Assembly: GCF_016406085.1 (NCBI RefSeq)
Contig: NZ_JAEHFJ010000005.1
Location: 124,001 to 188,000 of the forward strand
Direction: 5' to 3'
From: Aureibaculum flavum
Lineage (GTDB): Bacteria > Bacteroidota > Bacteroidia > Flavobacteriales > Flavobacteriaceae
Length of the DNA: 64,000 nucleotides
Shown here: positions 22,778 to 64,000 of the stretch, in pieces
Numbering within the stretch: position 1 is the first letter of the stretch
Layout: every line of letters starts with the position of its first letter
Notes under the pieces: generated by a model
Database searches by the model: none
Told to the model about the DNA's origin: nothing
What the model saw: the letters and a program-made list of their open reading frames with translations, nothing else
Made by a program: the position numbers and the translations under genes

Positions 22778-22859
22778 GCAGGCGTGGTGGAATTGGTAGA
22801 CACGCTAGACTTAGGATCTAGTGCCGCAAGGTGTGAGAGTTCGAGTCTCTCCGCCTGTA
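22778..22859 (+). tRNA. tRNA-Leu (anticodon TAG)
   Basis: The 82-base gene folds into a class II tRNA. The acceptor stem is GCAGGCG pairing with CGCCTGT (a G-U pair at the end). The D loop contains AATTGGTAGAC. The anticodon stem is CTAGA/TCTAG with loop CTTAGGA, giving anticodon TAG. A long variable arm (TGCCGCAAGGTGT) is followed by the T arm GAGAG-TTCGAGT-CTCTC. The CCA end is not encoded. It reads CTA/CTN leucine codons. Its 3' end is the first unit of a tandem array. Confidence 0.95.
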
Positions 22860-58398: not shown

Positions 58399-59937
58399 TT
58401 AACTTTTGTAAATTTTAAGTTTTGTACCTGGTTTTAAACTTTTAACGCTCCAAATATTGTTCCAATTTTTGATTTGTTCAACAGAAACTTGTGGAAATTT
58501 TTTTGATATGATCCATAATGAATCTCCTTTTTTAACTGTATAGGTAGTATACTTGCCTGTTGGAGTAGGTTGTGGAGTTGTTTTTTTAGTAATAGTTGTT
58601 GTGCTTTTAGTAGCAGTAGTTTTATAATTTTTAGGATAAATAGTTAATCGTTGTCCAATTTTTAGATTATTTGAACGTAAACCATTCCATCTTTTTATTT
58701 GAGATACTCCAACACCATAACGTTTGGCTATTTTACCTAAATAATCACCATTTCTAACTCGATATCTGATTTTATCAGAAGCCGTTTGAAATTTTGGTAA
58801 CTGTTTTTCGCGTTTAGCAAGATCTTCTTTGGCATAGGCATAGATTTGCTCCTCATTAGAAACAAATTTTCCAATCAAATTAATCGGTAAACGTAACGTG
58901 TATTTCTTTTCTTTTACAAAAGGAATTATTTTTAACTTGTATTGCGGATTTAAATGTTCTAACAGCTCATTATCCGTATTTAAAACCTTGTTAATTTCGT
59001 CAAATGTAATTTGATGTTTGACAACAATAGTATCGGTTTCAAATCTTTTAGTAATAAATTTTTGAGGCCTAATGCTGTGTTCATCGGCATATTCCATTAG
59101 ATATAATGTCGCATAAAATGCCGGTAAATAACCAGCAGTTTCACGAGGTAAATTGTGTCTAATATTCCAATAATTTCGGCTACCACCAGAGCGTCTTATA
59201 GCTTTTGAAACGTTTCCAGGGCCAGAGTTGTATGCGGCTAATGCAAGATCCCAATCGTTAAATGTATTATATAATTGGGATAAAAACTTACAGGCTGCTT
59301 CCGTAGCCCTAATTGGGTCATGTCTTTCGTCTACATAAGAATTTACTTCTAAATCAAATTGCTTGCCAGTATAATACATAAACTGCCATAAACCAGATGC
59401 TCCCACTCTAGATCTAGCTGTTGGTCTTAATGCTGATTCTACAATTGCTAAATATTTAATTTCTAAAGGAATATTGTATTTGTCTAGGTGTTCTTCAAAC
59501 ATAGGAAAGTAGTATTCTGCCCTTCCCATTAAAATACCAAGTGATTTTTTACGCGTTTTTAAATAATGTTTTATTAATCGTTCTAGAGAGGAATTATACT
59601 CAACATTAAATGGAGTTGTACTATTCAGGTGAGCCAACCTCTCTTTTAAAAGTTCAGTACTTAGTCCACTATTTAATGTATCAGAAATCTCTTCATCAGG
59701 ATCTACATATTGAAAGTCATTATCTAACGATGATGCTCTTAAACGAGCAACCCATAAACTATCAATTAAATTAGCATCACTATGATCAATTAATTCAGGA
59801 GGGGTTACTTTTAGGCTATCTCCATTTATTTTCAATGCCTTTGTAGTAGTATTATCTTTAAGTTCATTGCCTATTTTTTGAGCAAACAAAAGACTAGGTG
59901 ATAATAATAAAATGACTATATAAACGAATCTCATCAT
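58399..59937 (-). CDS. Lytic transglycosylase (MltD-like) with two LysM domains, copy 1
   Basis: The 512-residue protein has a signal peptide ending SLLFAQ and a GH23-type lytic transglycosylase domain. The catalytic Glu lies in IKYLAIVESALRPTARSRVGASG, followed by LWQFMYYTGKQF and LALAAYNSGPGNVSKAI. Two C-terminal LysM modules follow: IRYRVRNGDYLGKIAKRYGV with QIKRWNGLR, then YTVKKGDSLWIISKKF with KNWNNIW. It cleaves the glycan of peptidoglycan with 1,6-anhydro products. The linker is Thr-rich. A paralogue is the next gene upstream. Confidence 0.92.
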   Translation of the reverse strand: MMRFVYIVILLLSPSLLFAQKIGNELKDNTTTKALKINGDSLKVTPPELIDHSDANLIDSLWVARLRASSLDNDFQYVDPDEEISDTLNSGLSTELLKERLAHLNSTTPFNVEYNSSLERLIKHYLKTRKKSLGILMGRAEYYFPMFEEHLDKYNIPLEIKYLAIVESALRPTARSRVGASGLWQFMYYTGKQFDLEVNSYVDERHDPIRATEAACKFLSQLYNTFNDWDLALAAYNSGPGNVSKAIRRSGGSRNYWNIRHNLPRETAGYLPAFYATLYLMEYADEHSIRPQKFITKRFETDTIVVKHQITFDEINKVLNTDNELLEHLNPQYKLKIIPFVKEKKYTLRLPINLIGKFVSNEEQIYAYAKEDLAKREKQLPKFQTASDKIRYRVRNGDYLGKIAKRYGVGVSQIKRWNGLRSNNLKIGQRLTIYPKNYKTTATKSTTTITKKTTPQPTPTGKYTTYTVKKGDSLWIISKKFPQVSVEQIKNWNNIWSVKSLKPGTKLKIYKS

Positions 59938-60126: not shown

Positions 60127-61545
60127 TTATTCAGTGCTTGTTAAAACTTTTAGTTCAGTACCAGGTTTAATATGAGGTACACCCCAAATATTGTTCCAAT
60201 TACGAAGTTGATTTATGGAAACATTTTGAAATTTTCTTGAAATTATAAAAAGGGAGTCGCCCTTTTTTACGGTGTATACTTTAAAAACATCGGGTTTTAC
60301 AGATACTTCATTAGTTTTAACAGGTTCGGTAGATGCTTTTATAGCAATTTCGTTTTTCTTGTTTGTAATCACCAAACGTTGTCCTTCAATGAGAAAGTTT
60401 GTTTGTAAACCATTCCATTCTTTTAGTTGTTCTAATGTTATTCCAAATTTTCTCGCAATTTTAGGTAAGTTGTCTAGCTGTTCTACAACATAGCTATTTT
60501 CAGCATTTGGAATAATATGATGTGGTTTTTCTTTATTATTCAAGGTGTTATATTCCTCGTGGCTTTTACTTAAAAATTTTGCAATGGCACGCTTTGGTAA
60601 TGTTAATACTTGGATTTTGTTTTTGTTGAACGGAATAATCTCTAACTTATATTGAGGGTTTAAAGAAGTTAAGAATTTATTGGGTACTCCTGTCCTTTTT
60701 TCAATTTCTAAAAAACTTAGCCTTTGATTAATATGTAACGTGTCTGTATCGAAATAATCAATTTCAATATTGTTGGGATAAATTTGATGTGCTTCGCCAT
60801 ATTCAAAAAGATAAAACATGGCATAAAAAGCCGGAACATAACTACTTGTTTCTTGTGGTAAGTATTGTCTAATATTCCAATAATTTCTTTTACCTCCAGA
60901 ACGTCTAATAGCTTTGTTTACATTACCTGGTCCAGAATTATAAGCTGCCAAAGCTAAGTCCCAGTCATTAAAAGTGTCGTGCAATTTTTTTAAATACTTG
61001 CAAGCTGCTTCAGTAGCTTTTATTGGGTCAGTGCGTTCATCAATATATGAAGTTACATCTAAACCATATTCTTTACCTGTATGATACATAAATTGCCAAA
61101 TACCTTTTGCACCTGCATGTGATGTTGCTGTTGGTAGTAAAGCAGATTCTACTACAGCAAGGTATTTAATCTCAAGGGGGATATCATATTTGTCTAAATA
61201 TTCTTCAAAAATGGGAAAGTAATATTCTGCTCTGTCCATTAAATTAGAAATGGCCTCTTTTTTATCCTTTATATATAAGCGAATAAAGCGTTCTACAGTG
61301 GCGTTATAAGGAACGTCAAAAGGAGTTTTGTCATTTAGAATTGCCAACCTGTCCTTTAATATCATGCTGGTGAAATTCTCAACCTTGCTCGGTTTTATTT
61401 TAGTATCAGTAGTGTTGTGAGAAATAGTATAAGCAACATTCACCTCAGTCGGGTTCGTTTCATATTCATAACTATCTACCAAGGCGTTCTGAGCAACAGC
61501 GATTAAAAAATTACAGAATAAAATAAAAGTGAAAAGCTTCTTCAT
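60127..61545 (-). CDS. Lytic transglycosylase (MltD-like) with two LysM domains, copy 2
   Basis: The 472-residue paralogue has a signal peptide (MKKLFTFILFCNFLIAVAQ), the catalytic Glu in IKYLAVVESALLPTATSHAGAKG, LWQFMYHTGKEY-type continuation and AAYNSGPGNVNKAIRRSGG. LysM modules are YVVEQLDNLPKIARKFGI and YTVKKGDSLFIISRKF. The linker is shorter than in copy 1 and lacks the Thr-rich tract, and the first LysM lacks the usual xGD. The frame continues eight codons upstream from a TTG, but the -7 element at 61572 sits next to it, so the ATG at 61545 is used. Confidence 0.92.
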   Translation of the reverse strand: MKKLFTFILFCNFLIAVAQNALVDSYEYETNPTEVNVAYTISHNTTDTKIKPSKVENFTSMILKDRLAILNDKTPFDVPYNATVERFIRLYIKDKKEAISNLMDRAEYYFPIFEEYLDKYDIPLEIKYLAVVESALLPTATSHAGAKGIWQFMYHTGKEYGLDVTSYIDERTDPIKATEAACKYLKKLHDTFNDWDLALAAYNSGPGNVNKAIRRSGGKRNYWNIRQYLPQETSSYVPAFYAMFYLFEYGEAHQIYPNNIEIDYFDTDTLHINQRLSFLEIEKRTGVPNKFLTSLNPQYKLEIIPFNKNKIQVLTLPKRAIAKFLSKSHEEYNTLNNKEKPHHIIPNAENSYVVEQLDNLPKIARKFGITLEQLKEWNGLQTNFLIEGQRLVITNKKNEIAIKASTEPVKTNEVSVKPDVFKVYTVKKGDSLFIISRKFQNVSINQLRNWNNIWGVPHIKPGTELKVLTSTE

Positions 61546-61571
61546 TGAGGTTGATAGGTTTTGTAACAAAT

Positions 61572-61579: not shown

Positions 61580-61828
61580 GCAAAGCATCACAGGGTAATA
61601 GCAAAATTGTTAATTAATGCTAAAAACTTTAGATGTAATAATCAGTAATAGAAGATGTTGCGTAAATAACTTTCGAGCACATTGAAAAATAGTTAGTTAA
61701 TCTTTGTTTTGATTAACAAAAATGTAATTAGATGGTCGTTAAATTGTTTAAGTCAAAATAATATGCAATTCTAAAATAAATAATATAAAATTTTTTATGC
61801 CTTTAATAAAAAGTTGTAATATTGCTAT

Positions 61829-61897
61829 GTGAAAGTGTTACAAATACATATAGTTTCTACATATTTTAGTCGCCCATCTGGGATTCGTCGCCCGTAA
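61829..61897 (+). CDS. Putative arginine-operon leader peptide (22 aa)
   Basis: A short frame with a GTG start encodes about 22 residues ending YFSRPSGIRRP followed by TAA. Three of the last nine codons are Arg (CGC, CGT, CGC), two of them adjacent and just before the stop. It is followed after 19 bases by a terminator-like hairpin and precedes the arginine genes. This layout is that of an attenuation leader peptide. The GTG start is uncertain; a second GTG lies two codons on. TAATATTG just upstream (61818-61825) is a one-mismatch -7 element. Confidence 0.45.
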   Translation: MKVLQIHIVSTYFSRPSGIRRP

Positions 61898-61916
61898 GGG
61901 TATCTTATATTTTAAT

Positions 61917-61943
61917 GAACTTAGGTGAGTCCGGTTCTTTTTT
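61917..61943 (+). terminator. Terminator-like hairpin in the arginine leader
   Basis: GAAC pairs with GTTC, with an inner GG/CC pair, followed by TTTTTT. The stem is short. GAGTCC inside it (61927-61932) can instead pair with GGATTC (61881-61886) in the leader-peptide region (five Watson-Crick pairs and one G-U), a possible alternative fold. Confidence 0.45.
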
Positions 61944-61991
61944 CAAACACACAATTTTACAAACACATTTTAATTAATCTATTATCATAGT

Positions 61992-62621
61992 ATGGATATT
62001 GTTATTGCTACAAAAAAGCATAATAAGTATGCTGCCATTATTTGCGATACCATTGCGGAATCAGCAAAAGTCCGAGGGACTGGAATAGCTAAGCGTACTC
62101 CAGAGTATATCATGACTAAACTTGAAAATCAGAATGCTGTAATTGCCTTAGATGGTGATAAGTTTGCAGGGTTTTGTTATATCGAAGCTTGGGATCATGG
62201 TAAATTTGTAGCTAATTCAGGTCTGATTGTGCATCCTGATTACAGAAGCTTAGGTTTAGCAAAAAAAATCAAAAAAGTAATTTTTGATTATTCGAAAAAG
62301 AAATTCCCAGATGCTAAAATGTTTGGCATAACTACCGGTTTAGCCGTATTGAAGATTAACTATGAATTAGGGTATAAACCCGTTACTTTTTCTGAGTTAA
62401 CAACTGATGATGCTTTTTGGAAAGGTTGTCAAACGTGTAAAAATTACGATATATTAACGCGTACAGAACGAAAAATGTGCTTATGTACAGGGATGCTTTA
62501 TGATCCCAATGATAAAAAAGTAAAAGAGGAAAGTGAACAGAATCACCCTTATAATAAAAGAGTTTTACAAAGATTAAAAAACATTAAAGAAACAGTATTC
62601 TTAAAAAATAAAAACAAATGA
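61992..62621 (+). CDS. GNAT acetyltransferase of the arginine operon
   Basis: The 209-residue protein has a GNAT fold: YAAIICDTIAESAKVRGTGIAKR at the start, the acetyl-CoA loop VHPDYRSLGLAKKIKKVIF, and a C-terminal part. The C-terminus holds CQTCKNYDILTRTERKMCLCTGM, four cysteines in a C-x2-C and C-x-C pattern that could bind a metal. Its stop overlaps argG by four bases. The position at the head of an arginine operon suggests N-acetylglutamate (or N-acylglutamate) synthesis, the missing first step before ArgC; this is inferred from context, not from sequence motifs. Confidence 0.8.
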   Translation: MDIVIATKKHNKYAAIICDTIAESAKVRGTGIAKRTPEYIMTKLENQNAVIALDGDKFAGFCYIEAWDHGKFVANSGLIVHPDYRSLGLAKKIKKVIFDYSKKKFPDAKMFGITTGLAVLKINYELGYKPVTFSELTTDDAFWKGCQTCKNYDILTRTERKMCLCTGMLYDPNDKKVKEESEQNHPYNKRVLQRLKNIKETVFLKNKNK

Positions 62622-63805
62622 ATAAATTAGTTTTAGCATATAGTGGCGGATTAGATACATCTTATTGTGCAAAATATTTGTCTGCTGAAAAAGGTTACGA
62701 AGTTCATGCTGTAAGTGTAAATACAGGTGGGTTTACAGATGAAGAAATCAATGATATTGAAAAAAAAGCATATGCTTTAGGCGTTACATCTTATAAAAAT
62801 ATTAATGCAATTTCAACCTTTTATGAAAAGGTGGTGAAGTATCTTATTTTCGGTAATGTATTAAAGAATAATACCTATCCTTTATCTGTTAGTTCAGAAC
62901 GTATAATTCAAGCGATTGAAATAGTAATGTACGCAAAGAATATTGGAGCTAAATTTATTGCTCATGGTAGCACTGGTGCAGGGAATGATCAAATTCGATT
63001 TGATATGATATTTCAAATACTAGCTCCTGAAATAGAAATTATAACACCCATTAGAGACTTAAAGCTCTCAAGAATGGATGAAATAGAGTTTTTAAAAGGG
63101 CATGGTGTTGAAATGTCATGGGCAAAAGCTCAATATTCTATTAATAAAGGGTTATGGGGTACTAGTGTTGGAGGTAAAGAAACACTAACCTCAAATGAAC
63201 CGTTACCAGAATCGGCGTACCCAAGCCAGTTAGAAAAAGAAGGTTCTGAAAAAGTGAAGTTGAGTTTTGATAAAGGAGAATTGGTAGCCATTGATTATGT
63301 AAAAAATAGTCCAATAGAAAATATTAGAATTCTTAATGAATTAGCCTCTAAATATGCCATTGGCCGTGATACTCATGTTGGTGATACAATTATTGGAATA
63401 AAAGGTAGAGTTGGTTTTGAAGCTGCAGCACCACTTATTATTATTAAGGCACATCACTTATTAGAAAAACATGTGTTGACAAAATGGCAACAACATCATA
63501 AAGAGTATTTGTCAAATTGGTATGGTACAATGTTGCATGAAGGGCAGTTTTTAGATGCTGTAATGCGAAATATTGAAGCCTTTTTGGAAGATTCTCAGGC
63601 AAATGTAAATGGAGATGTTATCGTTACCTTAAATCCATATAGGTTTAGCCTTGATGGAGTTCAGTCGCGTCACGATTTGATGAATTCTAAAGTTGCCGCA
63701 TATGGAGAAATGAATGAAGGCTGGACTGCGGATGATGCAAAAGGATTTATTAAGATTCTATCCAATCAAAATAAGATTTTTAATCAAGTAAATAACAACG
63801 AATGA
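62618..63805 (+). CDS. argG: Argininosuccinate synthase
   Basis: ArgG joins citrulline and aspartate using ATP in the seventh step of arginine synthesis. The 395-residue protein has the PP-loop LAYSGGLDTSYCAKYL at the N-terminus, the conserved AHGSTGAGNDQIRFD and SINKGLWGTSVGG, and ends as usual. It overlaps the preceding GNAT gene and the following argC gene by four bases each (ATGA), so the three are translationally coupled. Confidence 0.96.
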   Translation: MNKLVLAYSGGLDTSYCAKYLSAEKGYEVHAVSVNTGGFTDEEINDIEKKAYALGVTSYKNINAISTFYEKVVKYLIFGNVLKNNTYPLSVSSERIIQAIEIVMYAKNIGAKFIAHGSTGAGNDQIRFDMIFQILAPEIEIITPIRDLKLSRMDEIEFLKGHGVEMSWAKAQYSINKGLWGTSVGGKETLTSNEPLPESAYPSQLEKEGSEKVKLSFDKGELVAIDYVKNSPIENIRILNELASKYAIGRDTHVGDTIIGIKGRVGFEAAAPLIIIKAHHLLEKHVLTKWQQHHKEYLSNWYGTMLHEGQFLDAVMRNIEAFLEDSQANVNGDVIVTLNPYRFSLDGVQSRHDLMNSKVAAYGEMNEGWTADDAKGFIKILSNQNKIFNQVNNNE

Positions 63806-64000
63806 TACAGGTTGGAATTATTGGTGGGGCAGGGTATACAGCAGGCGAATTAATTAGATTACTTATTCATCATAGAGAAGTTAATATTAATTTTGTTTAC
63901 AGTACTTCAAATGCAGGCAATAAAATTAGTGATATTCATCAAGACCTTATTGGTGAAATAGATCAAAAATTTTCTGATAAAATTAATACTGAGGTTGATG
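63802..64000 (+). CDS. argC: N-acetyl-gamma-glutamyl-phosphate reductase, 3' end outside window
   Basis: The first 66 codons are visible: MIQVGIIGGAGYTAGELIRLL, the NADP-binding GxxGxxG motif of ArgC, and INFVYSTSNAGNKISDIH. ArgC reduces N-acetylglutamyl phosphate to the semialdehyde. It starts inside the last codons of argG (ATGA overlap), and the rest lies beyond the window. Further arginine genes are expected downstream. Confidence 0.92.
   Translation, partial: MIQVGIIGGAGYTAGELIRLLIHHREVNINFVYSTSNAGNKISDIHQDLIGEIDQKFSDKINTEVD

Follow-up and report, generated by a model that had tools for sequence, protein, structure and literature searches.

Our analysis leads us to propose that the region upstream of the GNAT-argG(-argC) operon of Aureibaculum flavum is probably an arginine-sensing, leader-peptide-dependent cis-regulatory RNA, which would work through ribosome stalling in a short leader, a hairpin at the leader's end (P1) and a readout at a second hairpin (P2). 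Sensing of arginine by translation of the leader appears very likely, and comparison of related sequences shows a conserved end of the peptide, its biased codons, two covarying hairpins, an association with the operon and genomes that lack ArgR. The window, that is, the whole 64,000-nucleotide stretch of DNA that was analysed, contains the following parts of this locus.

61817..61824, plus strand: TAATATTG, a possible -7 promoter box (by eye), 4 nt 5' of the leader start codon
61829..61897, plus strand: leader open reading frame, GTG start to TAA, 22 codons plus stop, MKVLQIHIVSTYFSRPSGIRRP (sequence and ORF list)
61878..61946, plus strand (contig 35, 185878-185946): full match to the covariance model R1, E = 1.4e-17, 75.2 bits
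61886..61891, plus strand: CGT CGC, the final pair of Arg codons, where stalling is presumed (from the conservation of RRP)
61890..61901, plus strand: hairpin P1, GCCC-GUAA-GGGU (covariation)
61902..61916, plus strand: A/U-rich linker from P1 to P2 (sequence)
61917..61937, plus strand: hairpin P2, GAAC(U)...(G)GUUC with an inner GG/CC pair (covariation)
61923..61932, plus strand: P2 apex A-GGUGAGUCC, a bulged A, GG/CC and the loop UGAGU, conserved (this form in 124 of 154 elements)
61938..61943, plus strand: T6 run 3' of P2, not conserved
61992..62621, plus strand: GNAT-family acetyltransferase, 209 aa, first gene of the operon (PF00583 above cut-off; no NCBIfam family)
62618..63805, plus strand: argG, argininosuccinate synthase, 395 aa (PF00764 and PF20979 above cut-off)
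63802..64000, plus strand: argC-like open reading frame, start only, running past the window end (named by eye)

The initial annotation had described a short frame ending SRPSGIRRP-stop, a GAAC/GTTC hairpin with a T6 tail and a position upstream of GNAT and argG, and all of these are present; P1 is a feature absent from it. Each of the three Arg codons of the window leader is CGC or CGT, and the last Arg codon together with the Pro codon forms the 5' arm of P1, the stop codon lying inside the P1 loop. In P2, GAAC (61917-61920) pairs with GTTC (61934-61937), and the stem can be extended by U61921-G61933 and by G61924-G61925 with C61931-C61932. The box TAATATTG differs at one base from TAnnTTTG, the Bacteroidota promoter consensus, and its distance from the GTG suggests a nearly leaderless transcript that starts upstream of 61943. 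The argG product scores slightly under the cut-off of TIGR00032 (258.3 against 268.2 bits), and the GNAT protein shares 99% identity with its Aureibaculum luteum counterpart. Elsewhere in the window, two adjacent similar proteins on the minus strand (58399-59937 and 60127-61569) look by eye like LysM-bearing lytic transglycosylases, and a tRNA gene on the plus strand (22778-22859) is the sole Rfam match of the window at gathering scores.

Conservation in relatives, a test that had been set beforehand, proved strong. Among loci first fetched with the GNAT protein alone, the P2 apex precedes GNAT in 61 of 62 Flavobacteriaceae-type loci (L001-L040, L042 and L082-L102, with duplicates and the window counted), the exception being L100 (TGGTGAGTCC), which has one base altered beside the apex. 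The covariance model R1, built from an alignment of 51 GNAT-fetched sequences (A2), has matches in 248 of 397 Flavobacteriaceae genomes, a single one in 240 of them and two in each of eight (G074, G106, G108, G137, G154, G249, G327 and G400), and these matches follow the GNAT gene closely, with one in 243 of 264 genomes that have it compared to 5 of 133 that do not. Three of these last five were read (all except G284 and G376): in one, GNAT is present and cut by a contig end, and in the other two, L199 and L240, what looks by eye like a different GNAT-like gene is followed by argG, and the leader element is retained. The 21 GNAT-bearing genomes without an R1 match include two (L151 and L153) that keep the apex as GGTGNGTCC and several (L149, L150, L152 and L154) that keep Arg-rich leaders with different second hairpins; others show neither leader nor apex by eye, and L165 could not be placed. 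A search at the level of the class returned matches in 5 of 295 genomes, four of them Flavobacteriaceae with the window's own included; in the fifth, L270, no arg gene follows the match, which we regard as false. The region matches no family of Rfam 15 (T-box, Bacteroid-trp, Flavo-1 and others), the single match within 61700-62000 being a chance one (E 6.5), and R1 can serve directly to annotate this family, which Rfam 15 does not contain.

For the comparisons that follow, 163 elements were gathered, leaving 154 distinct ones after the removal of duplicates; L100 failed the apex pattern and was excluded, and the truncated L099 is outside A2 and inside the 154. The apex reads GGUGAGUCC in 124, GGUGUGUCC in 25 and GGUGCGUCC in 5 of these elements, an invariance that comes partly from selection, as the elements were gathered by the P2-apex pattern itself. 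The apex is also present in 110 of 110 loci found through R1.

The Arg-rich leader peptide claimed for the window is borne out by the relatives, in which its end is conserved. The open reading frame that closes at or near P1 ends in RRP-stop in 126 of the 154 distinct elements, with Arg at 27.6% of the last 16 codons, although the leader frame was chosen as the one with the most Arg, which inflates any contrast with other frames. The Arg codons are strongly biased: CGC and CGT account for 596 of 679 in the leaders compared to 119 of 433 in window reading frames, and CGC alone for 334 of 679 compared to 26 of 433, where the background consists of all ATG-initiated frames of at least 200 aa on both window strands and may include spurious ones. 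This CGY bias is found outside P1 too (276 of 352 Arg codons). Several leaders (L115, L119, L129, L202 and others) show by eye a possible hairpin inside the reading frame, for example GTTATC...GATAAC, about 25 nt before the Arg codons.

Both hairpins covary, covariation being a check that the initial annotation had suggested. In the 51 sequences of A2, 85.9% of cells pair compared to 81.3% after shuffling, and 32 double-change cells keep their pairs compared to 5.6. In A3, which comprises 100 of the 110 R1 loci, is fitted to the structure and has 5 sequences in common with A2, 89.7% of cells pair, and 70 double-change cells stand against 17.9 in shuffled sequences. Support for the outer pairs of P1 is poor, the column pair 11-26 being unpaired in 95 of 100 sequences. 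P2 combines a variable stem with a conserved apex, a bulged A followed by GG-UGNGU-CC.

Many relatives possess a second leader. A further Arg-rich reading frame lies upstream in 96 of the 153 elements with enough 5' sequence (for example L170, L183, L191, L202 and L204), compared to 1 of 153 in a reverse-strand control, whereas the window has the downstream leader type only. The upstream peptide often reads M.NLKNKIR...RNRRR, a consensus not shared by L014, L094 and L101, and its stop codon falls mostly about 135 to 150 nt before that of the downstream leader. Its Arg codons are again mainly CGY (341 of 398), and in 74 of the 96 the start codon stands 4 to 5 nt behind an 8-nt box beginning TAnnTT. 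Exact 5-bp stems that could form a hairpin at the stop codon of the upstream leader occur in 36 of 96 cases compared to 158 of 960 shuffled sequences, and we make no claim for such a hairpin. A terminator after the upstream leader was considered and rejected: TTTTT is present in 94 of 96, yet the preceding 30 nt fold no better than shuffled sequence.

The element seems to replace the usual arginine repressor in flavobacteria. The ArgR C-terminal domain (PF02863) was found in none of 60 genomes of relatives, the window's own included (16 belonging to its genus and the others to its family or order), in a search in which 8 of 14 controls were positive, Bacteroides among them. Across 20 named Bacteroidota loci, ArgR is present in the genomes of four Bacteroidales-type ones (L049, L050, L052 and L067), and in each of these argR stands directly before GNAT. 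This arrangement is not general among Bacteroidales-type loci, as the genome of L056 has no ArgR and L051, L056, L063 and L072 have other reading frames or none upstream of GNAT; the other 15 genomes (Cytophagales-, Saprospiraceae- and Microscillaceae-type), whose completeness is not stated, gave no ArgR match. ArgR of the Bacteroidales-type relatives shares the operon with the element but is a DNA-binding protein, and our findings suggest a route by which flavobacteria lacking it may control arginine synthesis through the translation of arginine codons and not through a DNA-binding repressor.

A similar arrangement is seen in 25 Cytophagales-type loci, where two hairpins come after an Arg-containing leader (for example HTTPFRFRSPRTA). 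A U-N-N-G-U loop caps the second hairpin in 23 of the 25 (all except L070 and L077), a count that has to be read with the search pattern in mind, since the closing bases are prescribed by it, as is the loop in the case of L058. Four loci were not counted: L063, L067 and L072, which are Bacteroidales-type and fit the pattern by chance, and L041, which does not fit it. By eye, this loop resembles the flavobacterial UGNGU loop. Dyadobacter-type loci (L057-L080) also show by eye a conserved stretch of the AAACGTCCCATCGTTTT type between the second hairpin and GNAT.

We envisage that ribosomes would initiate very close to the 5' terminus of the mRNA and make a short peptide with CGY-encoded Arg residues at its end. 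With little charged tRNA-Arg available, they may stall on the last Arg codons and so cover P1; when arginine is ample, the ribosome would finish and leave, and P1 could fold. The readout would then take place at P2, where transcription would most likely pause or terminate early immediately 3' of the hairpin, such that a shortage of arginine would raise expression. A ribosome held at the final Arg codon would presumably end about 10 nt before P2, if the footprint that we assume is right, and therefore a simple masking of P2 fails as an explanation. A broader reading, which we offer tentatively and regard as possible, is that the element is a new kind of amino-acid attenuator, in which one or two near-leaderless Arg leader peptides in series feed into a P1-P2 module; there, P2 would be a sequence-specific RNA signal (the A-GGUGNGUCC apex with its U-N-N-G-U loop) and not a U-run terminator, read by a putative factor or by RNA polymerase itself, and the module would take over the role of ArgR in flavobacteria and, as a variant, in Cytophagales.

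The initial annotation had interpreted the locus as a trp/his-type attenuator, with P2 and its T6 run as the terminator and a pairing of GGATTC with GAGTCC as the antiterminator, and we now consider this quite improbable. The window does have the T6 run, and GGATTC (61881-61886) can form 6 pairs, one of them G-U, with GAGTCC (61927-61932), so that the complementarity itself is real; it is not conserved, with GGATTC occurring in 2 of the 154 elements, and the Watson-Crick helices that leader and loop can form do not exceed those of shuffled sequences in length, which argues against such a switch. Nor do the relatives support P2 as an ordinary intrinsic terminator: it is weak (median -6.8 kcal/mol over the 154 elements) and is followed by TTTTT in 16 of 154, and a plain terminator would not be expected to have invariant loop letters. 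The tail of P2 is pyrimidine-rich and then A-rich, with a short YYUUUC tract common, and the frequency of T at the third to fifth positions after P2 (69, 82 and 66% of elements) is a point in favor of the attenuator reading. No mutually exclusive antiterminator pairing was found among the segment pairs of 135 of the 154 elements, in which the duplex energies of the P1 and P2 arms are better than shuffled by 3.4 and 5.2 kcal/mol, respectively, and those of no other pair by more than 0.9. Pairing of the P1 5' arm with the P2 loop (GGUG/CGCC), in which the native sequence exceeds the shuffled one in 73% of the 135, was rejected as a candidate, being without compensatory change; GGUGAGUCC is retained in each of the 10 elements whose arm reads CGCAC, and of these L095, L183, L184 and L218 have none of CGCC, CACC, TGCC and TACC there. 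The P1 3' arm with the P2 5' arm (77%) and the linker with the P2 5' arm (68%) bring small gains (0.73 kcal/mol). Because the antiterminator, a defining feature of trp/his-type attenuators, was looked for and not found, we do not place the element in that class. Judged by eye, these flavobacteria do have classic-looking his attenuators, and the arginine element is unlike them: in 20 Flavobacteriaceae genomes (L246-L265, the window's own being L262), the his leaders have a His-codon run in most cases, a strong hairpin of the CCCGTTTGA...TCAAGCGGG type with T4 or longer in all 20, and an upstream copy of the 3' arm of that hairpin in most. The combination of a conserved apex in P2 with no U-run behind it, alongside such textbook-looking his leaders, points to a readout beyond the standard attenuation model.

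If P2 is not an ordinary terminator, the leader might still sense arginine and act through Rho-dependent termination or mRNA decay, by analogy with speF of Salmonella. We regard this as rather unlikely, even though most P2 hairpins are without a U-run and speF provides a precedent in the two consecutive Arg codons of orf34 (PMC6386406, as far as the part consulted goes); the segment pairs include no conserved alternative fold, and gene, peptide and structure all set the element apart from the leader of speF. Alternatively, an RNA-binding factor that responds to arginine, or arginine itself, could bind P2, with the leader peptide being secondary. Such a role would fit an apex that is more conserved than its stem and that has no partner within the leader, as well as the finding that AGGTGNGTCC occurs 6 times in the genome and only once in this setting, a count that also led us to reject the apex as a general genomic signal. 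We nevertheless find binding at P2 very improbable, as the Arg-rich leader occurs as widely as P2 does and has a strong codon bias, some R1-negative relatives keep Arg-rich leaders with other second hairpins, and no factor is known. Each piece of the element is short by itself and could in principle have arisen as an unrelated reading frame beside a random hairpin; conservation in 243 of the 264 genomes, covariation, the RRP-stop end and the codon bias refute this, and its probability is negligible. The reading that we prefer remains an arginine-sensing leader peptide acting through P1 with a readout at P2.

Attenuation has reportedly been the subject of a comparative study by Lopatovskaya et al. 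in 2010. With trp and his attenuators, the arginine element has in common a short reading frame with codons for the end product, followed by hairpins, before the first gene, and at its sensing end it appears, by sequence, attenuator-like; it differs from his leaders, which have a strong hairpin, a T-run and a competing arm, in its weak P2, its mostly absent U-run and its conserved apex. Within the same family, 'strong clues' for leader-peptide attenuation before amino-acid biosynthesis operons have been presented for Flavobacterium psychrophilum, with no arginine case named in the text consulted (PMC9723704). The claim that no arginine version had been described in flavobacteria is not contradicted by the open-access literature, as covered by titles and the beginnings of abstracts, in which no leader of arginine biosynthesis appears for Bacteroidota, and has to be qualified by that earlier report of leader-peptide attenuation; in the parts consulted, PMC2864571, PMC7366714, PMC4833913 and PMC8632094 do not name an arginine leader. 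The GUCCY-hairpin motif is listed for Bacteroidetes and Proteobacteria without an Rfam accession (PMC2864571); in our element the base that follows GUCC is mostly G or A and not Y.

Leader reading frames that sense arginine are known for other genes, according to the parts consulted of two studies (PMC6386406 and PMC13009471). As described there, the leader peptide of rbfL in Staphylococcus aureus resembles the element in sensing arginine limitation with rare Arg codons, but it blocks the ribosome-binding site of rbf, such that shortage lowers expression, and it serves a regulator gene and not arginine synthesis (PMC13009471). The ErmB leader has two leader peptides in series, as do 96 of the 153 elements, and differs in responding to antibiotic induction by translational attenuation and not to an amino acid (PMC8274638, in the part consulted). 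In the Salmonella speF leader with its orf34, consecutive Arg codons and ribosome pausing in the absence of arginine alter the downstream RNA structure, much as we propose for the flavobacterial element, whereas the gene under control there is an ornithine decarboxylase and the control runs through Rho and RNase G, as far as the part consulted describes it (PMC6386406).
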